Positions 3,549-16,449 of a stretch of 64,000 bases of DNA are shown here, in pieces. Under the pieces are notes generated by a model that was not told the DNA's origin, did not search any database, and saw nothing but the letters and a program-made list of their open reading frames with translations. The position numbers and the translations under genes are program-made. The DNA is from Acrocarpospora macrocephala (GTDB lineage Bacteria; Actinomycetota; Actinomycetes; Streptosporangiales; Streptosporangiaceae). The stretch lies in assembly GCF_009687865.1 (NCBI RefSeq), contig NZ_BLAE01000034.1, positions 1 through 64,000 on the forward strand. The letters are read 5' to 3'. Numbering within the stretch: position 1 is the first letter of the stretch; every line of letters begins with the position of its first letter.

Positions 3549-4766
3549 CTATGACCGTTTCCTCCTGCGGGCGTACACGATCAAAGTGATGATCAAGGCT
3601 GCCTCGGCGGTAAGGATCGCCGCCGCCGGGACCGGCCCGAGCCAGCCGCTCAACCGGGTGAACCAGAGTGTGAAAATCGTCCCGATCAGGGCTGCGGCGA
3701 AGAGCGCGGAACCTACCCCGTACGCGACGTACGTCCACAGGTCTCGCCGCCTATACCCCTGCACCTCGGCCATATGGCGGCGCAGCAGATGCCCCCAGAA
3801 CTTGTACGTCTCCACGCGCAGGTCGGCCAGTCCCAGCGCGTGGGTGAGCATGTAGTAGCCGTCCAGCCGGAGGAACGGGATGAAGTTCACCAGCGAGGCG
3901 AGGGAGGTGAACAGCACCATCGAGCCGGCGAATGCCTTCATCGTGCTCCCGTCGGCGGTCACCAGCCACAGCCCGGCGAACAGCACCGAGAGGGTGAGGC
4001 TGGCGAACACCCCGGCGAACGCGGTGTAGACCCGGTGCCGGGGGGCCGCGAACAGCATCACGTCATCGGTCCGGCAGTACGGGGCCAGCAGCGGGAACCG
4101 CCACATCACCCCGATCTCCGGCACGCTGCCGCCGTACCGCTTGCAGGTCAGCCCGTGCGCGAACTCGTGCACGCCGTGGATCACCCAGGAGGTGGTGATC
4201 ACCAGCGCGAGGTACAGCGGCGCGCCCCGGTGCAGCCGCATCTGCCCCCAGATCTCGCTCCACTCGCTGATCACCAGCGCCCACACGCCGCAGGTGGCGA
4301 TCAGCACCGGCACCACGAACCTGGGCGAGAACAGCAGCCCGGCCCGGGGCGCGAGCAGCCCGAGCAGGCGATCCGGGTTCACCAGCGGGATGCGCTTCAG
4401 CAGCAGCGTGCTGCGGGACCGCTTGGTCTCCGCCGCCGCGGCCGCCCGCAGCCGCTCCAACTCGGCTAAGTCGGCATCCGCGCTCTCACCGAGCAGCCGG
4501 CGCCGGTGCAGCAGCCCGAAGATCTGCTCCCAGCTCTGCGGGCCGAGCCGCTTGCCGAAGGCCGCGACGTACTCCGCGTTGATGTCGTCGAGGCTGTGCT
4601 CGCCGTCCATCCGGGACAGCACGAAGTGCTCGCGCGGCCCCAGCTTGTAGTACCACCCGGTGGCGTGGTCCTTGACGTGGTAGACGGCGGTGTCCCCGGC
4701 CCGCAGCCCGGGCCCGAATACCACGTCCTCGCGGATCCGGGGCCGGGCCGACAAGTCGATGCTCAC
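3549..4766 (-). CDS. M50-type membrane zinc protease with PqqD-like N-terminal domain (RiPP cluster)
   Basis: 405 residues. Residues about 8-95 look like a PqqD-type winged-helix/RRE fold (VYHVKDHATGWYYKLGPREH, then DDINAEYVAAFGK). The membrane part carries the M50/site-2 protease zinc motif HEFAH at 200-204 and the partner motif NFIPFLRLDGYY, with LDG at 301-303. Several hydrophobic segments (about 150-170, 187-200, 247-272, 280-297 and two near the C-terminus) make it integral. GTG 4766 overlaps the stop of the LanB elimination gene (GTGA), so it is the last coupled gene of the biosynthetic train. No other protease or exporter is present, so leader removal or help with export is the likely role. 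The family is often annotated as putative peptide zinc metalloprotease. Confidence 0.85.
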   Translation of the reverse strand: MSIDLSARPRIREDVVFGPGLRAGDTAVYHVKDHATGWYYKLGPREHFVLSRMDGEHSLDDINAEYVAAFGKRLGPQSWEQIFGLLHRRRLLGESADADLAELERLRAAAAAETKRSRSTLLLKRIPLVNPDRLLGLLAPRAGLLFSPRFVVPVLIATCGVWALVISEWSEIWGQMRLHRGAPLYLALVITTSWVIHGVHEFAHGLTCKRYGGSVPEIGVMWRFPLLAPYCRTDDVMLFAAPRHRVYTAFAGVFASLTLSVLFAGLWLVTADGSTMKAFAGSMVLFTSLASLVNFIPFLRLDGYYMLTHALGLADLRVETYKFWGHLLRRHMAEVQGYRRRDLWTYVAYGVGSALFAAALIGTIFTLWFTRLSGWLGPVPAAAILTAEAALIITLIVYARRRKRS

Positions 4767-5785
4767 GCCGCGCTCCCGCCGGCCTCGAGCGCGTTCAGCG
4801 TCCGGGCGCCCAGGTAGGACAGGTAGACCTCATCCAGGATGCTGGCGCCGAGCCGGTTGTTGGTCATGTGCACGAACGAGCCCAGCAGGGCGCGCAGCGC
4901 CGCGTCGGGGTCCACGACCATACGGTCCGGCCCGCCGCCGAAGGGCAGCCCGTCCGCGGCCAGCTTCCGCACCCGGTCGCGCAGCTCCTGGCAGTGCGTG
5001 ATCCACTCGCGTTCGAACGGGGTAACCCCCATGCCGTCCGGGTCCCGCACGGCGGCGATGATCCGGCTGAGCCGGTCGGCCAGCACCGGCGCCATCCGGC
5101 CGTAACTGCTCTTGTAGCGCCGCTGCCAATCCTCCATCCCATCGACGTACTGGGACTCCCAGCGGCTCCGGTACCGCTCCAGGAAGAGGGCGACCTCGTC
5201 GGGCCGTTCCAGGAACACCAGGCACATGGCCATGGAGAGCTGGAACGACAGCCCCATCAGCACCGACCTGACGTGCACGTTCGCGGTGGCCAGCAGGTGC
5301 AGCACCGTGTCGCTGGACTTCTCGAAGTGCCACTCGGCCAGCTCGATGCCGTCCGGGCCGCCGTACCGGTGGTATTCGGGCTCGTAGTCGATGTAGTGGC
5401 GGGAGTTGTTGGGCCGGTGGGGCATCCCGTCGTTGCCGTAGGTGTCGTCCCAGCCCTCCTCGCCGTACTCCGCGACGTACATCCGCTGGTAGAAGTCGCC
5501 CATGTCCTCGCCGTCGAGTTCGTACAGCGCCGGGCGGCGGGCCAGGAAGGCGTCCACCTCGGGTTCCACCTCGGCGCGTACCGCCTCGGCGGGCACCCCG
5601 GGGGCCGGTCGCAGCCGCAGCCGCACGTGCGGGCCCTCCAGCCAGTACTTGATGAAGAAGTAGCGCTGGATCAGCTGCTTGTCCCGCAGCCGCTGGATGA
5701 GCGGCGCCACGCACTCCACCAGCATCGGGTCGGAGTTGCTGCTGTAGAAGATGTGCAGGGAGATCCACTTCGGGTCGCGGTTCAC
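4763..5785 (-). CDS. Thiopeptide-type LanB elimination-domain protein (SpaB_C family)
   Basis: 340 residues. The start ISLHIFYSSNSDPML, the FFIKYWLEGPHVRLRLRP block and the block YEPEYHRYGGPDGIELAE are hallmarks of the C-terminal half of class I lantibiotic dehydratases (TIGR03891/PF14028). VHMTNNRLG near the C-terminus matches the conserved HMxxNR segment of glutamate elimination. The enzyme should remove glutamate from glutamylated Ser/Thr to give dehydroalanine/dehydrobutyrine. Thiopeptide pyridine synthases (TclM/TbtD type) belong to the same superfamily, but the retained RYGG and HMxxNR motifs favour elimination. GTG 5785 overlaps the stop of the glutamylation gene (GTGA) behind GAGGAGG. 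Confidence 0.88.
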   Translation of the reverse strand: MNRDPKWISLHIFYSSNSDPMLVECVAPLIQRLRDKQLIQRYFFIKYWLEGPHVRLRLRPAPGVPAEAVRAEVEPEVDAFLARRPALYELDGEDMGDFYQRMYVAEYGEEGWDDTYGNDGMPHRPNNSRHYIDYEPEYHRYGGPDGIELAEWHFEKSSDTVLHLLATANVHVRSVLMGLSFQLSMAMCLVFLERPDEVALFLERYRSRWESQYVDGMEDWQRRYKSSYGRMAPVLADRLSRIIAAVRDPDGMGVTPFEREWITHCQELRDRVRKLAADGLPFGGGPDRMVVDPDAALRALLGSFVHMTNNRLGASILDEVYLSYLGARTLNALEAGGSAA

Positions 5786-8559
5786 CGGTTCCTCCTCACC
5801 CCGGCGAGCTCCATGGTGAGCTCGCTGACGTAGCGGGCGGCGCCGTCGCGGGCCACCAGCTGGTTCTCGTCGGGCAACATCTCGGTCATGATCAGGCGCT
5901 GGTCGGCCTGCCGGATCACCGAGTCCAGCAGGGACAGCGAGAAGTGGCTCTCGAAGTCGGTGTAGAGCGGCTTGTAGTCGCCGAACCGCCGCCTGGTCGC
6001 GGGCTGGCCCGCGTCCACATCGGCGTCCGCGGCGTCGCTGGTAGGCATCCCGCCGTACGGGTTGACGAACACCCGGGACGGCACGCCGTTGTCCCGCTGC
6101 CAGCGCCGCCAGGCCAGGAACCACTCGTGGTCGGGCTGGCGGGGCTCGCGCAGCGGCAGGTACGACGGGTGCATCTTCCACATCCGGCGCTGCACTACCA
6201 CGTTGCCGTAGCGGATCCGCGGATATCCGGCGATGGTCCGGTCCGGCACCGGCACCTGGGTGCCGATCCACAGGTCGAGCATCGCCATTCCGGTGTAGGA
6301 CAGGTTCAGCAGCACCTGCTGCACCTCCGGCAGCGCCATCGGCATCAGGAACCCGAGATACACCGGGATGACCTCGACCCCGAGCCGCTTCGAGCGCAGC
6401 ACCAGCCGGTCCTGCTCCCGGTCGTCGACCAGGAACAGGTCCTCCATCGGGATCTGCGCCTCCGGGTCGCGCCGGCTGCGGTCCCCCGGGCAGACCAGCT
6501 CGTACGGCAGCACCGCGGAATGCAGGTTGAGATTGCTCGCGGCGTAGCCGCCCTGCAGCTCGGCGAAGACGGCGCCCTTCGGCTGCAGTTCCAGCAGGGT
6601 ACGCCGCAGGGTGCTGTCCAGCGATCCGTCGGTGAACAGGTGGGTGAACCGGGAGAACAGCAGGGTGAGGCCGCTGTAGACCCGGTTCAGCACGGCCAGC
6701 GGGACCTCGCCGGGGCCCCGGTCGGCCAGTTGCAGGAAGAACGACCAGGGTTCCAGCAGGCTGGGCGTGGCGGGGGTCCGGGCGCCGGCCTCGCGGAGCA
6801 GGCCGGCCGGCAGCTCCAGCTCCTCCGCGCCGGGCGGCAGCGCCGCGTGCAGGTCGCTGACGCCCTCGGCCAGGTACCGCTTGGCGTCGTCGAGCGCGTC
6901 GATCTCCGGCATCCGGAGCGGGTTGCGCTGGCGGCGCAGCCGGTCGCTGCCCGCGGGTCCGCGCCAGCGCATCAGCCCCTTGCTGTAGCTGTCGAAGAAG
7001 TCCCGCTGGAACTCGTGGGCGAAGGTGAGGAAGTCGTCGTGGCGGGCGCCGGTGCCGTACCGGGCGCGGAAGAAGCCCTTGGTGACCAGCCGGCGCGGCA
7101 GCATCATGTTGAACAGCGGGAACACCTGGGCCAGGTCCTCCAGGTCCGGCTGCAGCCGGTCGCGCCAGACGTCCCGGTCGGCGACGGCCTGCCCGCGGTC
7201 CAGGGTGGCGTCCTCGTACACCAGAGTGCGCGGCACCTGCGGCGGTGCCGGCGCGATCCGCTGCTGCGCGTCCTGCAGCCCGTCGCGGATCTCGTCCAGC
7301 GCCGCCCGCCGTCCGGCCAGGCCCCGGCTCGGGTACGACCTGATGGTGGCGGCGACCCCGTCCAGCCGTTCGGCCAGCTCGCTCGCCCACGGCCGGTCCA
7401 GCGCGGCCATGCCGGCCCGGTAGCTGGCGAACGGGTCCGGGTCGTGGATGTCGATCTGCAGGTTGGGCACCACCAGCAGCCCGACCCTGATCAGGTGCCG
7501 CAGGAACCGCTCCACCTCGTCGCGCGGGCGTTCCGGACCGGTGGCGACGCGATCGGCGACCTCGCCGAGCCGGCGCGGCGGGCCGTCGCCGACCAGGTCC
7601 AGCACCTCGGCGAGGAGCTGCCCGCTGGGCAGGTAGAACAGCGACTCGCGCACGGTGTCCATCGCCATCGGCGCGTCCTCGTCGTCGTTCCGCCCGGCCA
7701 GCGCGCGCCGCCGCAGGTAGCGGATCCGCTCGCCGGACACCTCCCAGCCGGCGGTCGCCAGCACCGGCAGGTCCGCGGACATGGCCTGGTCGGCGAGGAG
7801 TAGCGTGGAGAGCTGCGACAGGATGCCGATGTTGAGCCGGACCTTGCTGCGCTGGTTCCCGCCGCCGAGGTCGAGCCGCAGCGCCTGGCCTGCCCCGGGC
7901 TCTATCCGGCCCAGGGTCACCGTGGTCAGGGTGCTGAACGGGCTGGTCTTGGCCGAGGCCCGATACAGGTACTCCAGCAGGGACCGCTCGATCCGGCGGG
8001 CCCGCTTGCCGAGCGGCCCGGGGGTGGCGTTGAGGTAGGTCGGCAGGTAGCGGTCGAGCGAAGGGGAGGAGAGCAGGATGCCGGCCCGCAGGGTCGGGTC
8101 CACCGCCAGCGCGCGGAGCACCTCGCGGCCTTCGGCGACCTCCGCTCCGGCCAGGGCGGCACCGGCCTCCTGCAAGGCGGCGTACCTGTTCCTGGCCGCG
8201 CACCAGGCGTCGATCTCCTGCCGGGTGGGCGGGTCCAGCGTGGCGGCGACCCGGTCCCGGGCCGTGGCGTCGGGGACACGCAGGTTGAACACGTCCCGCC
8301 GGATGTTGACCAGGTCGCGGCGGAGCGCCTGGTTCTCCCGGTGGCGGGCGACGGCGTGCCCGAGCGTGTCGGAGATGCGCTCGGCCCGCAGCCGCAGGTC
8401 CCGCTCGGCGTCCAGGATCTCCTCGGCCCACGCGCAGGCCCGCGGCGACCGGAGCGAGACGGCCGCGTCGAACGGCAGTCCCCCGACGCGGAGCAGGAAG
8501 GCCGGCGGCTGGTGCCAGTCGACGACGGGCTCGGTACGTTTCGACTCGGTGATCGTCAT
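5782..8559 (-). CDS. Split LanB dehydratase, tRNA-Glu-dependent glutamylation subunit
   Basis: 925 residues, ATG 8559, 10 nt after the SagB stop. It begins PAFLLRVGGLPFDAAVSL and has LLEYLYRASAKTSPFSTLTT around residue 200, the conserved core of Lant_dehydr_N (PF04738). The protein ends at the glutamylation domain; the elimination half is the separate, overlapping downstream gene. Such splitting is the rule in thiopeptide and goadsporin clusters (TbtB, GodF) and contrasts with full-length lanthipeptide LanB. It should glutamylate Ser/Thr side chains of the precursor cores using glutamyl-tRNA. No LanC cyclase is present, so lanthionine formation is not expected. Confidence 0.9.
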   Translation of the reverse strand: MTITESKRTEPVVDWHQPPAFLLRVGGLPFDAAVSLRSPRACAWAEEILDAERDLRLRAERISDTLGHAVARHRENQALRRDLVNIRRDVFNLRVPDATARDRVAATLDPPTRQEIDAWCAARNRYAALQEAGAALAGAEVAEGREVLRALAVDPTLRAGILLSSPSLDRYLPTYLNATPGPLGKRARRIERSLLEYLYRASAKTSPFSTLTTVTLGRIEPGAGQALRLDLGGGNQRSKVRLNIGILSQLSTLLLADQAMSADLPVLATAGWEVSGERIRYLRRRALAGRNDDEDAPMAMDTVRESLFYLPSGQLLAEVLDLVGDGPPRRLGEVADRVATGPERPRDEVERFLRHLIRVGLLVVPNLQIDIHDPDPFASYRAGMAALDRPWASELAERLDGVAATIRSYPSRGLAGRRAALDEIRDGLQDAQQRIAPAPPQVPRTLVYEDATLDRGQAVADRDVWRDRLQPDLEDLAQVFPLFNMMLPRRLVTKGFFRARYGTGARHDDFLTFAHEFQRDFFDSYSKGLMRWRGPAGSDRLRRQRNPLRMPEIDALDDAKRYLAEGVSDLHAALPPGAEELELPAGLLREAGARTPATPSLLEPWSFFLQLADRGPGEVPLAVLNRVYSGLTLLFSRFTHLFTDGSLDSTLRRTLLELQPKGAVFAELQGGYAASNLNLHSAVLPYELVCPGDRSRRDPEAQIPMEDLFLVDDREQDRLVLRSKRLGVEVIPVYLGFLMPMALPEVQQVLLNLSYTGMAMLDLWIGTQVPVPDRTIAGYPRIRYGNVVVQRRMWKMHPSYLPLREPRQPDHEWFLAWRRWQRDNGVPSRVFVNPYGGMPTSDAADADVDAGQPATRRRFGDYKPLYTDFESHFSLSLLDSVIRQADQRLIMTEMLPDENQLVARDGAARYVSELTMELAGVRRNR

Positions 8560-8569
8560 GCGTCCGCTC

Positions 8570-10189
8570 CTAGAGCCGGTAATCCAGCTCGGCGGAGGCG
8601 GTACGCCCGCGGCCGAGCAGCAGGAAGAGGAAGGTGCGCTCGTCGGTGCCGTCCAGGTGGAAGACGCCGTTGTAGGTGACGTTGTCGAGCCCGAGCACGG
8701 CGCCGCAGCTCACCCCGGCCGCGGTGGCCGCCAGGTAGCCGGCCTGCGCCAGCCCGCCGACCTCGGCGTTGAGTATCCGGTAGCCGCGCTTGCCGAACGC
8801 CGCCAGCGCGGGATCCAGCCGGGCGGTGATGGCCACCACCGCGCCCACCCGGTCCAGGTTGTAGTTGGTGAGGAAGTAGCTGCCTTGCAGGAAGCTCGGC
8901 ATGTGCTCGCGCACGTCCGGGTCGATCTCGACCGGGTCGAGGGCGTGGCGCTCGGGCAGGTAGACGTATCCGCCCGTGGGCACCCCGGCCACCCGGTGGA
9001 CCATGACGAACAGGCGGGTCAGCGGGCCGGGATCGGCGGCGGGGTGGATGTCGGCGCGGTAGTGCCGGGCCGCGGTGGCCATGCGCAGCACGCCGCCCAG
9101 CTCGGCGGCGGTCAGCGGCGGGGCCGCGGCGAAGCCGCCGAAGGCGGACCGCCGCTTGGCCAGCGCCTCGCCGAGGTCCATCCCCAGCTCCACCGGCGGC
9201 GGCAGCGGGACCTCCTGCGGCCGCGCGGCAGGCGGGGCGGCGGGTGGCGCGGCGGACCTGGCCACCTCGGGATCCGGCCGGGCCTCCCCGGCGTCCACCA
9301 GGGCGGCCAGGTGCACCTTCTCCACCGTGGGGAAGCTGATCACGGTCCGGGACCGCTCGAACGCGGGCTTCGTCACCCTGGGGGCGGCGTCGTTCAGGAC
9401 ACGATCCGGACCGGGGCCGGCCCACGGCAGCGGGACCACGGCGAGCACGCTCTCGCCCAGCGTGTCCAGGCCGAGCAGGTCGTTCAGCGCGCGGTCGGCG
9501 AACCACATGACGCGCCGCAGCGGCATCCGCAGCGCCCGCGCGATCAGCTCCCAGGAGGTCAGCAGGGCGCCCACGTCCTGGGTGACGACGTGGTAGGCGA
9601 AGCTGTTGTACTTGAAGGCGTTCTTCCAGAACTTCACCGAGATCAGCAGGAACTGGTCGGTCTCGCAGGCGCTGGGATGGTGCCCGGTCGCCGCCCGGAC
9701 GCGCTCGGTCAGGTCGCCGACGAGCAGCCGCTCCAGGGCGTGGCTGCCGGTGACGTAGTGGTAGACACCGGGCAGCAGCGGGCCGGTGGCGCCGGACACC
9801 CAGTAGATCTCCAGCGGGTAGAGCCCGCCGCCGGACGCGGTGCCGCGACCCCAGACCGCGTGGTCGTAGCCCACCCGGGCCAGCGTGTCCTGGTTCCAGT
9901 TCGGTTCCAGGCGCCGGCACAGCGTGCTGTACGACATCCGCAGCAGGGTGGCGAGCGAGGTGAACGACCAGGGGCCCTCGGTGTCCGGCAGGGTGGCGGT
10001 CGCGGCGAGCGGCCGCAGCGGCGGGTGATCGTGCGGCAGCGGCATGGTGATCACGTCGCCGTACGTTTTGATCTTCGAGGGTCCGTCGTCCCAGTCCGGC
10101 TGGAAGTTGAAGGGTTCCATCGGCTCGCGGCCACGGCGGAACACGGCTTCGGCGTAGTCGCGGATCAGCGCGATGTCACTGTTGACCAT
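8570..10189 (-). CDS. SagB-type azoline dehydrogenase with two nitroreductase-like domains
   Basis: 539 residues from ATG 10189 (MVNSDIALIRDYAEAVFRRG), behind AAGGGGTGG; an in-frame extension to 10300 overlaps the YcaO gene and is rejected. Two nitroreductase-like halves can be seen. The first (about 60-290) has SYSTLCRRLEPNWNQDT, RGTASGGGLYPLEIYWVS and FLLISVKFWKNAFKYNSF. The second (about 320-530) has LAKRRSAFGGFAAAP, a GVPTGGYVYLPERHALDPVE block and GYLAATAAGVSCGAVLGLDN. FMN-dependent members oxidise azolines to thiazoles/oxazoles in TOMM pathways (SagB, TbtE, GodE). It lies between YcaO and LanB, 25 nt after YcaO, consistent with one operon. Confidence 0.88.
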   Translation of the reverse strand: MVNSDIALIRDYAEAVFRRGREPMEPFNFQPDWDDGPSKIKTYGDVITMPLPHDHPPLRPLAATATLPDTEGPWSFTSLATLLRMSYSTLCRRLEPNWNQDTLARVGYDHAVWGRGTASGGGLYPLEIYWVSGATGPLLPGVYHYVTGSHALERLLVGDLTERVRAATGHHPSACETDQFLLISVKFWKNAFKYNSFAYHVVTQDVGALLTSWELIARALRMPLRRVMWFADRALNDLLGLDTLGESVLAVVPLPWAGPGPDRVLNDAAPRVTKPAFERSRTVISFPTVEKVHLAALVDAGEARPDPEVARSAAPPAAPPAARPQEVPLPPPVELGMDLGEALAKRRSAFGGFAAAPPLTAAELGGVLRMATAARHYRADIHPAADPGPLTRLFVMVHRVAGVPTGGYVYLPERHALDPVEIDPDVREHMPSFLQGSYFLTNYNLDRVGAVVAITARLDPALAAFGKRGYRILNAEVGGLAQAGYLAATAAGVSCGAVLGLDNVTYNGVFHLDGTDERTFLFLLLGRGRTASAELDYRL

Positions 10190-10214: not shown

Positions 10215-12119
10215 TTAGGGAAATGGGTGCGGGCACAGGTGGCGCCCGGTGGCGCCGAGCTGGTCGGGGCCGTTCTGGCCGCGCGCCACGAAGGCGTCAA
10301 GCCGCGGGTGGTGCAGCACGCGCTGGCGGGCCCAGCCGAAGTCGATGGGCACCAGGCCTGGTGTGATCACGCAGGCCGTGCGCAGGCCGAGGGCGGCCTG
10401 TTCGGGGGAGGTCTGCTCGACCACGATGACGTCGCTGCCGATGCCGGCGATCAGGTCCACCAGGTAGCGGACGTCGTCGCTGAGGTTGTCGGTCAGGGGT
10501 CGCTGCCGGGTCCAGTCCGCGTGCAGCTCGTCGAGCGAGCGCATCGGCGCGTCCTTCAGGAAGAAGTCACTCTTGTCGGCCATCTCCGGCAGGCCGTAGA
10601 GCAGGGAGTGGTGGGTGAGCTCGGTCACCTTCCAGTAGTCGGCGGCCATCTCCCGCGCTTCGTCCAGCTTCTGCTCGACCCGCGTGGGGAAGCTCGGCAC
10701 GTACGAGGCGGTCTCGCACACGGCGGCGCGCACCGCGTCCAGCGGGTCGAGGCTGGCGCCCGCGGCCAGGCAGATGGTGCCCAGACCGCCGTCCCTGCGG
10801 ACCGCGACCGCGGTGATCGCGGGCACCGGCAGGTCCACCCGGGTGTCGAACAGCCGCAGGTCGTAGCCCTGCAGCCCGACCCGGTCGATCATCAGCTGGA
10901 CGGTCAGGTTGGCGCAGCTGGCCGGGTCTATCTCGGCCATCCTGGCCTTGCCGAACCAGGACAGCAGGAAGGCGTCGCGTTCGATCAGTTCGAGCAGGCC
11001 GTACAGGATGGCCTCTTCGAGGCAGGCGCCGCTGGCGCATCCGTTGGAGCACTCCTGGACGAACAGCCGCTCGTCCGCGCGCTGGTCGAGGTAGTAGACG
11101 AGCTGCTCGGGGACGAGCACTTCGCGCTTGTCCCGCAGCGAGTAGCCCCAGACCCAGTGCATCGGCAGGTCGGGGGAGAACTGCTCGTAGACGGTATTGC
11201 CCTGGTACATATCGGCGTGGTAGCCGAGGCCGCTCGGGTCGAGCGCGTCGGGCGCGAGGTTGGCGTAGGTGTCGTAGACGGTGACGGCTTTGCCCCGGGC
11301 CATGACTCCCGCGTGCCGTTCCAGGCCTTCGAGTACGGCGTACCGCTCGCTGGCCCCGTAGCTCGACGCGTGGCCGCTCCAGTAGCCTTCGTGCAGCCGC
11401 CACCTGCTACGGATCTTGAAGGCGCCGGTCACGGGGGCGGTGGCCGTGCCGTAGAAGTCCCGGAACGCGATCCCGCCCAGCATTCCGCACACCGGGTTGA
11501 CCAGCGCGTCTATCGGCAGGTCCAGGTCGCTCGCGGACCGCAGCCGGACCGCGGCGGGATCCGGCTTGATCCTCGGGGGCAGCTCGACGGTGGCGGACTC
11601 GGGCAGGTCGGGCGCGGGAGTGCCGCAGGCGGGACACATCGAGTCCGGCAGCAGGGCGGCCCGGGTGATTTCGAGGCTGTCCAGCCGCACCTGGTACACG
11701 TGCGGGGTCCGCTCGCCCGCGGCGACCGAGGCGACCAGGTCACAGATCAGATCGGCCGCGAACGGGGTGAGCTGCGGCAGCGGGCCGGTCACGTACGCCT
11801 CGCCGCCGTCCTCAAGGCCGCCGCGTTCTGGGATCGGGCGCAGCTCCTGCCAGCGCCTTTCCACGCACCGCGGGCAGGGCGAGGCGGCGCCGTCGGTGCC
11901 GCAGAGCGGCCCCACCATCGCCTTGCCGGTGCCTAGCCAGACGGGTATCACCGGGCCGTCGGCTGGTTCGGCCCGCTCACCCGGCCCGAGTGCGTTCCGC
12001 AGTCCCAGGACGCCCAGGTGTACGGCGGGCGCTGACGGAGGTCGGGCGCGCAGCCGATCGGCAAGGCGGGTCAGGCTCGAGTCGAGCGGGGTTGAAGTCT
12101 TTCTCACGACTACGTTCAT
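10215..12119 (-). CDS. YcaO-domain cyclodehydratase (TOMM D protein)
   Basis: 634 residues from ATG 12119. The N-terminal region carries cysteine pairs CPRC (82-85) and CPAC (162-165). The ATP-binding YcaO signatures follow: SYGASERYAVLEGLERHA (253-270) and EEAILYGLLELIERDAF (368-384). The C-terminus ends in PHPFP, the proline-rich tail typical of azoline-forming YcaO enzymes. It should convert Cys, and possibly Ser/Thr, of the cores to azolines with ATP, delivered by the separate F-type protein encoded at 13998-16148. It follows the precursor array directly: only the leaderless core remnant lies between them. Confidence 0.92.
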   Translation of the reverse strand: MNVVVRKTSTPLDSSLTRLADRLRARPPSAPAVHLGVLGLRNALGPGERAEPADGPVIPVWLGTGKAMVGPLCGTDGAASPCPRCVERRWQELRPIPERGGLEDGGEAYVTGPLPQLTPFAADLICDLVASVAAGERTPHVYQVRLDSLEITRAALLPDSMCPACGTPAPDLPESATVELPPRIKPDPAAVRLRSASDLDLPIDALVNPVCGMLGGIAFRDFYGTATAPVTGAFKIRSRWRLHEGYWSGHASSYGASERYAVLEGLERHAGVMARGKAVTVYDTYANLAPDALDPSGLGYHADMYQGNTVYEQFSPDLPMHWVWGYSLRDKREVLVPEQLVYYLDQRADERLFVQECSNGCASGACLEEAILYGLLELIERDAFLLSWFGKARMAEIDPASCANLTVQLMIDRVGLQGYDLRLFDTRVDLPVPAITAVAVRRDGGLGTICLAAGASLDPLDAVRAAVCETASYVPSFPTRVEQKLDEAREMAADYWKVTELTHHSLLYGLPEMADKSDFFLKDAPMRSLDELHADWTRQRPLTDNLSDDVRYLVDLIAGIGSDVIVVEQTSPEQAALGLRTACVITPGLVPIDFGWARQRVLHHPRLDAFVARGQNGPDQLGATGRHLCPHPFP

Positions 12120-12182: not shown

Positions 12183-12281
12183 TCAGTTGCAGCTCGTACA
12201 GCTGGTGCTGCTGGTGCTGGTGCTGGTGCTGGTCCAGCAGCTGCCCGACGTGCTGCAGAAGGTGCTGGGCGTGCCGTCTAC
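12183..12281 (-). pseudogene. Orphan RiPP core: ninth core sequence without leader
   Basis: Directly behind precursor 8, but in another frame, the minus strand encodes VDGTPSTFCSTSGSC, then WTSTSTSTSSTSCTSCN and a stop. The VDG start matches the end of the common leader (MPVDG), and the body aligns with the cores of precursors 5 and 7, which also have WTSTSTS. No start codon, ribosome site or leader belongs to this frame; the leader was presumably lost by recombination into precursor 8. A frameshift late in precursor 8 would translate it, but nothing shows that this happens. Confidence 0.6.
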
Positions 12282-12469
12282 GAGCCCGGCCCGCAGCTGG
12301 TGACGATGCTGCAGCTGCTGCTGGTGCTGCACCAGGTCGGAACGCTGCAGCTGAATGACGAATCGACCGGCATCTCGGCGCTGGCGAACGCGGAGTCCAG
12401 GTCCGCGATCTCCGCGATCTCGAACGTCTCGATCTCCAGCGCGGCCAGCTCGATCCTTGGGTTGATCAT
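12278..12469 (-). CDS. RiPP precursor 8 (thiopeptide-type)
   Basis: 63 residues with AGGAGG before ATG 12469. The leader is MINPRIELAALEIETFEI, then AEIADLDSAFASAEMPVD to residue 36. The core (37-63) contains Cys at 41, 47, 53 and 59, exactly every six residues, in the setting CSVPTWCSTSSSCSIVTSC, and ends GPGS. It begins 16 nt after the precursor 7 stop. The leader resembles the TIGR03892 thiazolylpeptide-type precursors. The last codons overlap the out-of-frame orphan core. Confidence 0.9.
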   Translation of the reverse strand: MINPRIELAALEIETFEIAEIADLDSAFASAEMPVDSSFSCSVPTWCSTSSSCSIVTSCGPGS

Positions 12470-12485
12470 GTTTCCCTCCTCTCGA

Positions 12486-12677
12486 TCAGCTGGTGCTGCT
12501 GCAGCTGGTGCTGGTGCTGGTCCAGTGGGTGCAGCCCGTACTGCACATGCAGCTGCAGGGAGCCGCGTCGAATACCGGCACTTCGGCGCTGGCGAACGCG
12601 GAGTCCACGTCCGCGATCTCCGCGATCTCGAAGGTCTCGCTCTCCAGCGCGGCCAGTTCGGCCGACATCTTGATCAT
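12486..12677 (-). CDS. RiPP precursor 7 (thiopeptide-type)
   Basis: 63 residues from ATG 12677 (MIKMSAELAALESETFEI), with GGAGGA 6 nt upstream; a longer in-frame start at 12776 runs into precursor 6 and is rejected. The leader ends SAFASAEVPVFD. The core carries Cys at 41, 43, 45, 49 and 59 (CSCMCSTGCTHWTSTSTSC) and ends SSTS. The first seven residues, MIKMSAE, equal those of precursor 6, pointing to tandem duplication. Confidence 0.9.
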   Translation of the reverse strand: MIKMSAELAALESETFEIAEIADVDSAFASAEVPVFDAAPCSCMCSTGCTHWTSTSTSCSSTS

Positions 12678-12733
12678 CTGTCCTCCTCTCTGTCTTCGCC
12701 GTCGGCTGCCGGCTCGCCGACGAGCCCCGCCCC

Positions 12734-12901
12734 TTACGACGCCAAGCCGGTGCTGAGGGGGGAGGCGCAAAAGCACGTGGTCGCCGTGGCGCCGTCGAAC
12801 GGGAGTTCGGCGCTGGCGAGCATGGAGTCCGTGTCCGCGACCTCCGTGATCTCGAACGTCTCGGTCTCCAGCGCGGCCAGTTCGGCCGACATCTTGATCA
12901 T
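12734..12901 (-). CDS. RiPP precursor 6, short core
   Basis: 55 residues from ATG 12901, with GAGAGGAC upstream. The leader is intact (MIKMSAELAALETETFEI, then TEVADTDSMLASAELPFD). The core is unlike the others: DGATATTCFCASPLSTGLAS, with only two cysteines (43, 45) and a hydrophobic end. It may be a divergent product or a core drifting out of use. The gene is short and easily missed, but leader, ribosome site and spacing (25 nt after precursor 5) support it. Confidence 0.85.
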   Translation of the reverse strand: MIKMSAELAALETETFEITEVADTDSMLASAELPFDGATATTCFCASPLSTGLAS

Positions 12902-12926
12902 TTGGGTGTCCTCTCGACTCCTGGGA

Positions 12927-13109
12927 TTACGAGCAGCTGGTGCTGGTGCTGGTCCAGCAGCTGCACGAGGTGCTGCAGTAGGTGCAGCTGCTGTAGCCGG
13001 GATCGATTGGCATTTCGACGCTGGCCAGCGTGGAGTCCATGTCCGCGATCACTTCGATCTCGAAGGTCTCGGTCTCCAGCGCGGCCAGCTCGGCCTTTGT
13101 CCTGTTCAT
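12927..13109 (-). CDS. RiPP precursor 5 (thiopeptide-type)
   Basis: 60 residues from ATG 13109, which overlaps the stop of precursor 4 (ATGA); the ribosome site is weak, so translation is probably coupled. The leader is MNRTKAELAALETETFEI, then EVIADMDSTLASVEMPID. The core has Cys at 42, 45, 49, 51 and 59 (SSCTYCSTSCSCWTSTSTSC). In-frame sequence further upstream (to 13364) belongs to precursor 4 DNA in another frame. Confidence 0.9.
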   Translation of the reverse strand: MNRTKAELAALETETFEIEVIADMDSTLASVEMPIDPGYSSCTYCSTSCSCWTSTSTSCS

Positions 13110-13291
13110 GAGCAGCTCGTTGTGGCGGCGCACGCGTCGCACATCGTGGAGCACAGGATCGGGACTCCACATGCGGTGGAGCCGTCGACCGGCATTTCGG
13201 CGCTGGCGTACGCGAAGTCCAGGTCCGCGATCTCCTCGATCTCGAACGTCTCGATGTCCAGCGCGGCTAGCTCGTTCTTCTTGGTGATCAT
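13106..13291 (-). CDS. RiPP precursor 4 (thiopeptide-type)
   Basis: 61 residues from ATG 13291 with AAGGAAG upstream. The leader is MITKKNELAALDIETFEI, then EEIADLDFAYASAEMPVD. The core is less serine-rich than its siblings and holds Cys at 41, 47, 51, 54 and 60 (STACGVPILCSTMCDACAAT), ending TSCS. It is the first gene after the long stem-loop at 13326-13365, so its level may be set separately from precursors 2 and 3. Confidence 0.9.
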   Translation of the reverse strand: MITKKNELAALDIETFEIEEIADLDFAYASAEMPVDGSTACGVPILCSTMCDACAATTSCS

Positions 13292-13325
13292 TGCTCACTT
13301 CCTTCCGCTGAGTGGTCTCAGGGGA

Positions 13326-13365
13326 GGTGGACATCCGCCGATGGGAACCTCGGCGGATGTCCACC
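13326..13365. promoter_or_regulatory. 16-bp perfect stem-loop inside the precursor array
   Basis: GGTGGACATCCGCCGA and its exact reverse complement flank an 8-nt loop. It stands between precursors 3 and 4 in the direction of transcription, with no T-run after it. It could be a leaky terminator, an RNA processing/stability site, or a boundary of the duplicated precursors. Confidence 0.6.
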
Positions 13366-13418
13366 GATGGTTAGGCGCAACTCCGGGGATGCGCTGGTCG
13401 TGCCTGTTCCGGAGCTGG

Positions 13419-13649
13419 TCATTCCGCACAGCTGGTAGTGCTGCAACTGCAACTGCAGCAGCTGGACGTGCTGCTGCTGCAGCAGCTTGAGCAGCTGCAG
13501 CTGGAGCTCGTCGCACCCGAGAATTCGCCGCCGTCCCCGATGGGGACTTCCGCGCTGGCGTACGCCGCGGCGAGATCGGCGACCTCCTCGACCTCGAAGG
13601 TTGCCGTCTCCAGAGCGGCGATCTCCTGTCTCATCAGAGCGATACTCAA
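13419..13649 (-). CDS. RiPP precursor 3, probably TTG start
   Basis: 76 residues if translation starts at TTG 13649 (MSIALMRQEIAALETATFEV). GGAGGT lies 8 nt upstream of that codon; the GTG at 13670 would place GGAGGT inside the gene, and ATG 13634 is too far from it. The leader ends YASAEVPIGDGG. The core carries nine cysteines (51, 53, 56, 57, 64, 65, 67, 69, 74), as in SSSCSCSSCCSSS, then TSSCCSCSCSTTSC, ending AE. With precursor 2 it forms the cysteine-dense, classical thiopeptide-looking subgroup. Confidence 0.88.
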   Translation of the reverse strand: MSIALMRQEIAALETATFEVEEVADLAAAYASAEVPIGDGGEFSGATSSSCSCSSCCSSSTSSCCSCSCSTTSCAE

Positions 13650-13684
13650 AGTAGTTTCACCTCCGTTCACTTCTCGGATCGGAC

Positions 13685-13705
13685 CCGGCGGGCGATCTCC
13701 GCCGG
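13685..13705. promoter_or_regulatory. Small inverted repeat between precursors 2 and 3
   Basis: CCGGCGG / CCGCCGG arms around a 7-nt loop in the gap between precursor 2 and the ribosome site of precursor 3. It could be a weak RNA hairpin; function is not evident. Confidence 0.35.
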
Positions 13706-13739
13706 ATGTAATCGGGGGGATCAGCTGGTGTCGCCGCGA

Positions 13740-13964
13740 CTAGTAGCAGCTGCTGGCGCTGCAGCTGCTGCTGCTGCAACTGGTGTCGCTGCAGCTGCAA
13801 CTGCAGCAACTTGAGGTGCTGCAGCTGCAGCAGCTGGATGTGCTGCAGCCGCCGTCCGCCGGTACCTCTGCGACGCTGGCGAACGCGGAGCCCAGGTCCG
13901 CGATCTCCTCGATCTCGAAGGTCCCGAGATCCAGGACCGCGAACTCACGAGCGAGTTCCTGCAT
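13740..13964 (-). CDS. RiPP precursor 2, eleven-cysteine core
   Basis: 74 residues from ATG 13964 with AGAGGAAG upstream, 33 nt after the F-protein stop. The leader is MQELAREFAVLDLGTFEI, then EEIADLGSAFASVAEVPADGG. The core runs from residue 40 with Cys at 40, 45, 46, 48, 53, 54, 56, 58, 63, 68 and 73. CSTSSCCS occurs twice in tandem (40-47 and 48-55), so the core grew by an internal 8-residue duplication. The end is CSASSCY. It is the longest and most cysteine-rich core of the array. Confidence 0.92.
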   Translation of the reverse strand: MQELAREFAVLDLGTFEIEEIADLGSAFASVAEVPADGGCSTSSCCSCSTSSCCSCSCSDTSCSSSSCSASSCY

Positions 13965-13997
13965 GGCTGGCTTCCTCTCCGGGACGTGGGTGGTGTT

Positions 13998-16148
13998 CTA
14001 CCGTCCGGACCCTGGCGTACCGATCAGGACCACCCCGGTGACCAGGGCCTCCGCCGTCAGCAGGTCCGGCGTCATGGTGTCCACCAGCAGCGCTGTCTCG
14101 CCTCGCCGGTTGAGCGCGTCGAGCATGGCCGGTACGGTGGCCTGCTCGTCGGACGGGCGGCTCGTCTCGGCGGCCAGGGGAAGGCCGGCCCGGGGATCGA
14201 AATCGGCGATCAAAGGGGCGCCCAGGTCCGGCGCCGACCCCTCGAAGTGCTGCGCCTGCAGGGTGCCGACCACGTCGCACAGCACGTCGCGGGCGGCCGA
14301 CGCGAAGGACAGCCCGCCGGCGATCGACCATGACGGCGCGGCGTCGCCGTCCTCGTCGGCGACGGCCAGGACGGCGTGCGCCGGGGCCGCGCCGGGCAGC
14401 GCGTACAGCTGCACCGGGCAGCCGAACCGGAGGGCGGACTTGACCAGGAATGCCAGGCTCTCGTCCGCGGCGATGGCGTCCTCGTCCACCGGCACGACGC
14501 CGCCCCTCCCGCGCACTGCGTCCCGCAGGGCGGTGTAGGCGAAAGCCGAGGTCAACCCCTTCGCGATCATCTCGTCGCGGGTGAGTTCCGCCGCGGCGCC
14601 GGCCGGTGTCCGCTCCACGAGCAGCCGCGCGTTCGCGGTCGAGAACGGGTAGGCGGCGGCGGCCGGGACGCCGTACAAGGCCCCCGAGCGCAGGTCGGTG
14701 GCCGGCAGCCAGGGGATCGGCGCGTCGGGGTCCACCGGCAGCCCGGACCAGGTGGCGAGCCGGTCCGCCGGCATTGGCGCCTCGCCGGTGGCGGCGATCT
14801 CCGCCGCGGTTCCCACCACCATGTCCCCGCGCCCGATCGGCGCGGCCAGGTACTCCCTGATGGACTTGCGGAACGCCAGCAGCCGGGCGTCGCGGGCCGT
14901 GTCCAGGTGGAACGCGGTCACCGCACGGGTGTCCGAACCGCCGAGCGGCGCGAACTTCAGCCGGGCGGTCTTGATCGGCATCTGCTCCAGCTCGTCGTCT
15001 GCGTACTCGGTGATCACCCCGACTCGCCGGCCGAACAGCCGCTCCAGGCGGCGGTAGCGCTGGTCGTCGGTGAGTTCTTCCGGGGCGTTGGGCTCGGGCG
15101 GCGGTGTCTGCGCGCACAGCGGGCACGCCGGGTGCGGCAGCAGCCGCTCCCGGTGGACCTCCAGGGTGCGCAGGTCCTGCAGCACGACGGCGGACCGCGT
15201 CTCGAGCAGCAGCGCCCCGGTGAACAGGCGGAACAGCTCGAATCCGGCCGCGTTGCCGATCATGCGGGCGACCGTCAGGTCGAGCCGGTCGGCGGCGCCG
15301 ACGGTGCCGATCGCCATCGACCGCCACCGGTCGGCCGCCGTGGCGGGGTCGCCGACGTCCAGCCGGAGCTGGGCGCAGAGCCAGCAGGGCGAGGTCCGCG
15401 GCCCGACCACCGGGCCGAGCACCACCGTGGTGCCGTGGACCATGAGCGGCAGCAGCTGCGGGCCGGACTCCTGGGCCCGCCGGGTGAGCTCGAACACCTC
15501 CGACAGCACCGGCCGGTCCGCGCAGTACACGATCGCGTCCAGCCCGGCCTCGATCAGCTCGGCGCGCGAGCCGAGCCTGATCGCCGGCGCGGCGCCGTCC
15601 GGGATGCCGAACTCGGCCGCCAGCGCCAGGTAGGGCGCCGGATCGTCGTCCGTCGCCACGTGCAGCGCGGCCAGCCCGTTGCGTACCAGGCTGGTGGCGA
15701 CCGCCAGTAGCGCCTCCCCGGAGCCGGTCACCAGCACCCGCGCGGCGCGGAATTCCGCGAACCGGCTCCGCGGCCGATCCGTGAAGTGATCGATGTACTC
15801 GATCTGGCTGCGGAACCGGTCCGCGACCGGCAGGGGCAGCTCAGCGTCCTCGCCGTCCGCCGCCGCGTCCTTGGCGAAGCCGCGCTCGACCAGCGTGCCG
15901 ATCAGCTCCAGCACGGTCACGCGCTGCTGGTCGGCGAGCCCGTCGCACAGCTCCGTCACCGTGTGCTCGCCGGTGAGCAGCGGGCTGAGCGTGGCGAGCC
16001 AGCGGTACGCGGACTTCCCTTTGACCAGGAAGGCGGTGTCGCCGTTGCGCAGGTACGCTCCCGACCGCGACTCCAGGATCACCGTATCCAGCTTGAGCTT
16101 TGGCCTGACAACGAGCAGCGGAGCCTGGTCCACCGTAACGCTCACCAT
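13998..16148 (-). CDS. TOMM leader-binding F protein (Ocin-ThiF-like)
   Basis: 716 residues from ATG 16148 behind GAGGAGG. Residues about 1-95 look like the winged-helix precursor-recognition element (KLDTVILESRSGAYLRNGDT). An E1/ThiF-like region follows (RAARVLVTGSGEALLAVATS), with zinc cysteine pairs CWLC (255-258) and CPLC (342-345, in HPACPLCAQ). The C-terminal half corresponds to the partner domain of thiopeptide F proteins. It should bind the shared leader and present the cores to the YcaO enzyme. One F protein serving eight near-identical leaders explains why the leaders are conserved while cores vary. It sits between precursor 1 and the other seven. Confidence 0.85.
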   Translation of the reverse strand: MVSVTVDQAPLLVVRPKLKLDTVILESRSGAYLRNGDTAFLVKGKSAYRWLATLSPLLTGEHTVTELCDGLADQQRVTVLELIGTLVERGFAKDAAADGEDAELPLPVADRFRSQIEYIDHFTDRPRSRFAEFRAARVLVTGSGEALLAVATSLVRNGLAALHVATDDDPAPYLALAAEFGIPDGAAPAIRLGSRAELIEAGLDAIVYCADRPVLSEVFELTRRAQESGPQLLPLMVHGTTVVLGPVVGPRTSPCWLCAQLRLDVGDPATAADRWRSMAIGTVGAADRLDLTVARMIGNAAGFELFRLFTGALLLETRSAVVLQDLRTLEVHRERLLPHPACPLCAQTPPPEPNAPEELTDDQRYRRLERLFGRRVGVITEYADDELEQMPIKTARLKFAPLGGSDTRAVTAFHLDTARDARLLAFRKSIREYLAAPIGRGDMVVGTAAEIAATGEAPMPADRLATWSGLPVDPDAPIPWLPATDLRSGALYGVPAAAAYPFSTANARLLVERTPAGAAAELTRDEMIAKGLTSAFAYTALRDAVRGRGGVVPVDEDAIAADESLAFLVKSALRFGCPVQLYALPGAAPAHAVLAVADEDGDAAPSWSIAGGLSFASAARDVLCDVVGTLQAQHFEGSAPDLGAPLIADFDPRAGLPLAAETSRPSDEQATVPAMLDALNRRGETALLVDTMTPDLLTAEALVTGVVLIGTPGSGR

Positions 16149-16260
16149 GTCCTCCTCTGGCTATCGCGAATCCTGGCGGAGCGTATGCCGCGCCCAGAAC
16201 GGCAGACAGAGCACAGCGGATGCTCAGCTCGCTACCCGACCGGTCCCAGTGCTCAGGCCA

Positions 16261-16449
16261 TCAGCCGCTGCAGCAGCTGTTGGTGCTGGCCGAGCTCGTG
16301 CAGGAGTTGGTGCTGGTGCATGACAGGCCGTCCGTGCTGCTGGCGATCGGCATTTCCGCGGAGGCCAGCGCCTCCATCAGGTCCGGGATCTCGTCGATCT
16401 CGAACACTTCGGACTCCAGGGCGGCCAGCTCGTTCCGGATCTTGCTCAT
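16261..16449 (-). CDS. RiPP precursor 1, head of the operon
   Basis: 62 residues from ATG 16449 (MSKIRNELAALESEVFEIDE), with a GTGGGAG site upstream. The leader ends ALASAEMPI. The core (36-62) has 19 Ser/Thr/Cys among 27 residues, with Cys at 44, 50, 59 and 60 (LSCTSTNSCTSSASTNSCC), ending SG. It is apart from the other seven precursors, 112 nt before the F-protein gene, and is first to be transcribed from the divergent promoter region. Serine/threonine outnumber cysteine strongly, so dehydration should dominate azole formation here. Confidence 0.9.
   Translation of the reverse strand: MSKIRNELAALESEVFEIDEIPDLMEALASAEMPIASSTDGLSCTSTNSCTSSASTNSCCSG

Follow-up and report, generated by a model that had tools for sequence, protein, structure and literature searches.

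Can a single set of modifying enzymes serve eight different peptide cores? The question is raised by a locus in the first 64,000 nucleotides (nt) of contig NZ_BLAE01000034.1 of the actinomycete Acrocarpospora macrocephala (the window), on whose minus strand eight small precursor genes, p1 to p8, lie beside genes for azole-forming and dehydrating enzymes. Our reading, to which we give a probability of about two in three, is that this is a gene cluster for ribosomally synthesised and post-translationally modified peptides (RiPPs) of the linear azole/dehydro-peptide kind, in which one enzyme set would serve all eight cores, with leader and core changing as modules.

The eight minus-strand precursor frames claimed in an earlier note on this DNA are all open, in-frame and free of internal stops, at the coordinates collected in Table 1. 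In each of the eight genes the frame that codes for the core is also the one rich in Ser, Thr and Cys (S/T/C), with a fraction of 0.43-0.82 against at most 0.27 in the other frames. The range of 2 to 11 cysteines given for the cores stands (two in p6, 11 in p2), whereas their length, put before at 20-38 residues, comes to 21-40 with the leader-core border chosen here, on which it depends. That most precursors have a ribosome site of their own also agrees with what we saw: by eye, a purine-rich site lies upstream of seven of the eight, p5 being the exception, and the ATGA overlap of p5 with the stop of p4 suggests coupling of the two. For p3, the TTG start has a ribosome site and the alternative ATG no visible one. 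A terminator scan gave one site, which did not rise above shuffles.

One leader is indeed common to all eight precursors, and its DNA forms an eight-copy repeat family of 116 nt, although the motif that had been quoted for it fits loosely, the corresponding residues being EVFEIDEIPD in p1, DLGTFEIEEIAD in p2 and ETATFEVEEVAD in p3. When a precursor model built from all eight was searched against the 12.1-Mb genome, a 166-contig draft in which 150 of 195 first-look candidates were scored, it found exactly eight sites (E 3e-30 to 5e-17), all at this locus, and no further match in the genome at E <= 0.1. The p4 to p8 leaders are 79-92% identical in DNA, reaching 92% between p4 and p8 and 91% between p7 and p8. 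In a tree of 111 leaders, from which we had left out repeated leaders and any whose motif is preceded by fewer than nine residues, all eight window leaders fell into one clade (support 0.94); thus the leaders were duplicated or homogenised in this lineage, in an order that the tree does not fix.

This likeness breaks at the border with the core. Among genes p4 to p8 we compared six of the ten possible pairs, and in all six the number of matches per 15 nt, 10-15 from a point slightly ahead of the start to the end of the leader, dropped to 3-8 where the core begins. The cores of the p4/p8 and p7/p8 pairs were no closer to one another than after codon shuffling (as good a match arose in 57 and 128 of 200 shuffles, respectively). 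The reverse arrangement occurs after p8, where a ninth core without a leader is identical to the p5 core at 47 of 50 nt (score 85; the best shuffle reached 37), while the DNA ahead of it gave no leader match (2-4 of 15 nt). Programmed -1 frameshifting into this core was considered, and the frame in question proved to be open only from position 12332 on. A leader shared without its core, together with a core shared without its leader, suggests exchange or replacement at the border, and by their sequences leader and core look like separately inherited modules. Fast divergence of the core is possible for some pairs. In the p7/p8 and p5/p8 pairs matches climb back to 12 of 15 late in the core. A more specific version, which we offer tentatively as an idea with the odds against it, is a core-swapping array: leader-plus-ribosome-site modules and core modules would recombine at the border, helped by AGC, TGC and ACC repeats, displaced cores like the ninth would serve as silent donors, and a pathway whose core composition is nearly constant in other lineages would here yield a changing family of azole/dehydro-peptides. 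Codon bias as a source of core instability was considered and found weak (AGC encodes 54 of 79 serines in the window cores, 57 of 149 in the enzymes and 892 of 1545 in the cores of relatives).

Since p4 to p8 have such similar leaders and the genome is a draft in 166 contigs, short-read assembly of repeats might have made part of the array or lost the leader of the ninth core. We regard this as very improbable, because the eight copies can be told apart at many sites and the compared pairs have different flanks, which argues that they are not duplicated reads.

Table 1. Features of the precursor array and its modifying enzymes in the window
Feature	Coordinates	Strand	Remarks
Precursor p1	16261..16449	minus	Upstream of F
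F protein	13998..16148	minus	PbtF-like N-terminal stretch, then TruD/LynD-like and YcaO-like stretches
Precursor p2	13740..13964	minus	S/T/C-type core
Precursor p3	13419..13649	minus	S/T/C-type core, nearest to family core; TTG start; ATG at 13634
Perfect 16-bp hairpin	13326..13365	minus	Separates p3 from p4; may be an attenuator or a former array end
Precursor p4	13106..13291	minus	Diversified core
Precursor p5	12927..13109	minus	Diversified core; ATGA overlap with p4
Precursor p6	12734..12901	minus	Poorest core, 2 Cys, 21 residues
Precursor p7	12486..12677	minus	Diversified core
Precursor p8	12278..12469	minus	Diversified core
Leaderless ninth core	12183..12281	minus	VDGTPSTFCSTSGSCWTSTSTSTSSTSCTSCN; after p8 stop, -1 frame relative to p8
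D protein, YcaO cyclodehydratase	10215..12119	minus	cyclo_dehyd_2 stretch at 56-214
SagB-type azoline dehydrogenase	8570..10189	minus	
LanB-N, glutamylation protein	5782..8559	minus	PDB matches 6ec7 (lantibiotic dehydratase domain protein) and 9jhq (goadsporin biosynthetic protein)
LanB-C, probable glutamate elimination protein	4763..5785	minus	
M50-type intramembrane protease	3549..4766	minus	Possible N-terminal RRE; likely leader peptidase

Having a shared leader raises the matter of what would read it. Residues 17-93 of F match the PbtF chain 8t19 in the PDB (E 8e-16), which we take to be a leader-binding RiPP recognition element (RRE), and from this match the first ~95 residues of F likely bind the leader. 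F proteins of the present type bind the precursor, as the available text of Cox et al. (PMC4603692) describes. F scores 62 bits on TIGR03882 (cut-off 37) and D 305 bits on TIGR03604 (cut-off 219). The genome holds one F and one SagB (one match each at E <= 0.001), and for D one full match and one partial one (260-400 of 634, 35%). The notion of one enzyme set accordingly holds for F, D and SagB but not for LanB, which is not unique in the genome: matches to Lant_dehydr_C lie at five places, namely the window and contigs C51, C100, C122 and C40. Lant_dehydr_N is matched at three of these five (the window, C51, C100) and by a short stretch of C35. On C51 and C100 the proteins resemble whole LanB enzymes, and C122 and C40 each carry a stand-alone LanB-C protein.

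The M50 protease, like the ninth core and the hairpin a feature beyond the earlier note, has the daptide intramembrane protease NF041824 as its best model, at 165 bits against a cut-off of 300. A profile comparison pairs its N-terminal ~100 residues with the N terminus of F (87% probability, E 4e-6, 20% identity, gapped), but a PDB search with its profile placed an annexin (E 0.002) ahead of PqqD (E 0.11); on these alignments an RRE at its N terminus is only suggestive. Among the complete relative loci listed, the cluster mostly closes with the M50 protease, which is a candidate leader peptidase for the cluster family.

The precursors had been called thiopeptide-type, a label that we had to give up, since LanB-C carries elimination residues and no pyridine synthase model is matched above cut-off in the genome. 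The family profile of the one LanB-C in the window aligns with R784-x-R786, R826-YGG and H961 of NisB (whole match E 7e-4; 1-14 bits for each single stretch), of which we take R784, R786, R826 and H961 to be the catalytic residues of glutamate elimination, and MibB displays the same three stretches. R55, R57 and H306 of LanB-C are the same in each of ten family members, six of which have Arg and four Lys at the R826 position. For the pyridine synthase model NF045556, the window LanB-C is the sole match in the genome, at 114-115 bits against a cut-off of 325. With elimination residues present and no pyridine synthase above cut-off, the products are expected to be goadsporin-like, and linear azole/dehydro-peptides, not thiopeptides, are predicted. 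Some points would favour another reading of LanB-C: by family profile its best PDB match is the pyridine synthase TbtD (E 1e-13), it also matches TsrE, whose function was unstated (E 5e-7, with the RLR motif), it does draw those bits from NF045556, and two stand-alone Lant_dehydr_C proteins are encoded outside this locus. However, in TbtD the RLR motif is without its second Arg and neither YGG nor HMTNNR has an aligned counterpart, the His is absent from TsrE, the NF045556 score is far under cut-off, and the two stand-alone proteins (C122, C40) match TIGR03891, not NF045556; a true thiopeptide cluster, with a pyridine macrocycle formed by this LanB-C or by one elsewhere, therefore seems to us most unlikely. 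Homologues of the [4+2] enzyme are ubiquitous in thiopeptide clusters, according to the available text of PMC4603692. None of the eight window precursors reached the 25-bit cut-off of the thiazolylpeptide-type bacteriocin precursor model TIGR03892 (p3 24.9, p6 24.2, p4 22.9, p8 22.0, p2 21.0 and p1 16.2 bits; no match for p5 and p7), nor did any of the three relative precursors tested.

We propose that the N-terminal RRE of F would bind the shared leader at its FEIxEIAD region, that the YcaO protein D would cyclise Cys, Ser and Thr of the attached core, and that SagB would oxidise the azolines. LanB-N would then glutamylate and LanB-C eliminate, giving dehydroalanine and dehydrobutyrine, and the M50 protease would remove the leader. 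Azoles first and dehydration second is the likely order, since GodF acted only on azole-bearing GodA in the available part of the goadsporin study (PMC5303826). Because recognition would lie in the leader, one enzyme set could serve eight cores. From p2 and p3 it would make products of the S/T/C type of the family, while p1 and p4 to p8 would present lineage-specific cores, their leader module having been duplicated or homogenised and their core module having changed independently. The gene content, the shared leader, the single F, D and SagB, the lack of a pyridine synthase match over cut-off in the genome, the break at the border and the displaced ninth core are all read from sequence; expression, modification of each core, leader cleavage and a biological role are inferred, as is the combinatorial product family proposed before.

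Does this arrangement occur elsewhere? A single F protein found no relative in genome_contigs, and the F alignment was insufficiently conserved for such a search, for which the D alignment was used; it gave 462 relatives, of which the best 80 yielded 74 loci with D 41-59% identical. F matches were found in 21 of 341 family genomes at E <= 1e-30 and in 15 of 394 class genomes at E <= 1e-40 (the window genome included). The order F, precursors, D, SagB, LanB-N, LanB-C, M50 recurs in the relatives, and the window fits it, with precursors between F and D; the hosts include Micromonospora, Actinomadura sp. DC4, Saccharothrix, Kribbella and Streptomyces. Among 85 relative loci (nine 20-kb duplicate copies having been dropped and L054-L064 left out), 139 precursors were recognised: none in 23 loci, one in 25, two in nine, three in 19, four in six and five in three. 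These counts are lower bounds, as the pattern recognised no precursor in those 23 loci, some of which are truncated; a looser pattern added one each in L085 and L112. The statement that such pathways usually carry one precursor is a poor fit for the nearest family, 37 of the 62 relative loci with a recognised precursor having at least two, and arrays of one to five precursors are normal in the widespread actinobacterial family that holds the window cluster. Searching the literature with family core strings we found no paper, and no description of the cluster family came up in titles and abstract starts, with subscription literature mostly outside this search.

What sets the window array apart is where its conservation lies. 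The relative cores comprise 67 distinct sequences in their last 24 residues, 125 of the 139 have at most one residue there other than Ser, Thr, Cys, Gly or Ala, and three core types, for example SSSCSCSSCCSCSTSSCCSTSTSTSSCG, recur across genera among the relative loci listed. At least four such other residues occur in six of the eight window cores as against five of the 139 relative cores. In arrays of at least three genes, cores surpass leaders in identity in 25 of 28 relatives, whereas the window has a core identity of 0.38, the lowest of 29, and a leader identity of 0.66, a contrast that is partly compositional because identity is inflated in S/T/C-only sequence. The nearest relative core is 0.79 identical for p3, 0.67 for p2 and p5, and 0.42-0.58 for the others. 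Among the 341 family genomes only G066 gave another match to the precursor model at E <= 1e-5, a single one; 18 candidates were scored per genome, and since the model leans on the window leader, arrays with other leaders may escape it. By these comparisons the locus belongs, as a genuine array of eight genes, to a widespread family, within which its array size and its reversed conservation are unusual.

Some neighbouring cases may be recorded here. A sister species in the genus of the window has an S/T/C-core version of the cluster (L052), whose D is only 49% identical to the window D and which is therefore not a close orthologue. In the same taxonomic family, L053 has precursors of another type at 8309-9397, four in tandem and with poly-Cys cores, for example CSCCVACCCCCCG; beside them lie distant matches to F and D as well as two stretches resembling LanB-C. 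Two D proteins, the second often beside precursors of its own, occur in L038, L041, L043-L046 and many Streptomyces loci. Next to the window array, a large LuxR-type regulator, AbsR2-like but below cut-off, diverges at 16637-19237; it had no match in the 20 relative loci examined.

Several observations weigh against the reading of eight served cores. The leaders of p4 to p8 are under weak purifying selection (over ten pairs, mean nonsynonymous rate dN 0.154 and synonymous rate dS 0.193), dN exceeding dS in three of the four pairs that involve p6, and they do not form one clade in the leader tree, where p4 pairs with p2 at low support (0.73). The independence of the cores is blurred by the p5/p7 pair, which climbs back to 10-15 matches per 15 nt late in the core, by the p5/p7, p5/p6 and p4/p6 cores, whose likeness lies above shuffles (2, 3 and 4 of 200 as good), and by p5, which is as near to the family as p2. 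The other LanB proteins of the genome could act in trans, and no exporter was seen among the ten neighbouring proteins scanned. A strong hairpin separates p3 from p4 (the 129-nt region that holds it has z = -5.6) and may lower the expression of p4 to p8. Taken together, the hairpin, p5 with no ribosome site seen, the short and Cys-poor p6 and the ninth core without a leader make a partial decay of the array possible.

Pressed further, these points would make p2 and p3 the working substrates and p4 to p8, perhaps with p1, relaxed copies whose cores drift freely. The S/T/C composition is kept in p2 and p3 alone, and the position of the hairpin could be telling: perfect hairpins of at least 12 bp occur in 15 of 39 relative F-D gaps, and in 10 of these 15, as we read them, one sits between the last precursor and D, so that the window hairpin may mark an old end of the array. 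(L110 offers a parallel at 9204-9665: a hairpin follows its third precursor, and the fourth, beyond the hairpin, is almost a duplicate of the third.) The leader tree does not support an old array end, nor, with p4 to p8 outside a single clade, does it bear out that they were added later. We hold such decay unlikely, a little more so than core swapping, since all eight frames are open, seven have ribosome sites, the S/T/C-rich frame is the coding frame in all eight cores, identity falls at the leader-core border and not evenly, and drift alone would not yield a core shared with p5 without the p5 leader.

We prefer the reading of one enzyme set serving eight modular precursors. If p4 to p8 are made, one natural enzyme set takes cores of 21-40 residues with 2-11 cysteines, a tolerance that would stand out in a family with cores almost only of Ser, Thr, Cys, Gly and Ala. 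The locus would then offer tolerant enzymes for azole formation and dehydration along with a ready-made series of natural substrates, and the birth of new cores would be readable in its DNA, with the leader kept, the core changed and the old core left behind.

How does the cluster compare with known systems? Closest are the actinobacterial F-precursors-D-SagB-LanBN-LanBC-M50 clusters, many of which share its gene order, enzyme set and precursor position; they differ in having one to five precursors where any was recognised, cores almost only of Ser, Thr, Cys, Gly and Ala, and, in most arrays of at least three genes, cores more alike than their leaders. For the published systems that follow, the comparison draws on the available portions of the papers cited. 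Goadsporin (PMC5303826, PMC4603692) likewise has azoles from a cyclodehydratase and a dehydrogenase, dehydroalanine from a split LanB and no pyridine, and in the window, too, a split LanB stands without a pyridine synthase. It has one 19-residue core, GodB as the likely leader remover and the acetyltransferase GodH, where in the window F is a protein of its own, the cores number eight and the protease is of the M50 type. A fused cyclodehydratase is also characteristic of goadsporin; the window D itself has a cyclo_dehyd_2 stretch, but F comes as an additional protein. Dehydrazoles (PMC10676384) also combine azoles and dehydroalanines in one S/T/C-rich core, but with a LanM-type dehydratase and a long NHLP-like leader. 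In daptides, MpaP (PMC10036551) is an RRE fused to an intramembrane site-2 protease, the leader is removed by this RRE-dependent peptidase and there are several precursors per cluster; by analogy, the window M50 protease is likely the leader peptidase, though daptide chemistry differs and the protein stays below the NF041824 cut-off, as given above. One enzyme set with many cores is already known. Prochlorosins (PMC10783134) have one tolerant enzyme, ProcM, a conserved leader and variable cores, with up to 16 consecutive precursors; they differ as lanthipeptides with a LanM-type enzyme, Nif11 leaders and precursors also scattered over the genome. The NHLP/Nif11 TOMM precursors (PMC2887384) share the combination of a conserved leader with a hypervariable core, termed natural combinatorial biosynthesis, and differ by their long nitrile-hydratase- or Nif11-like leaders.

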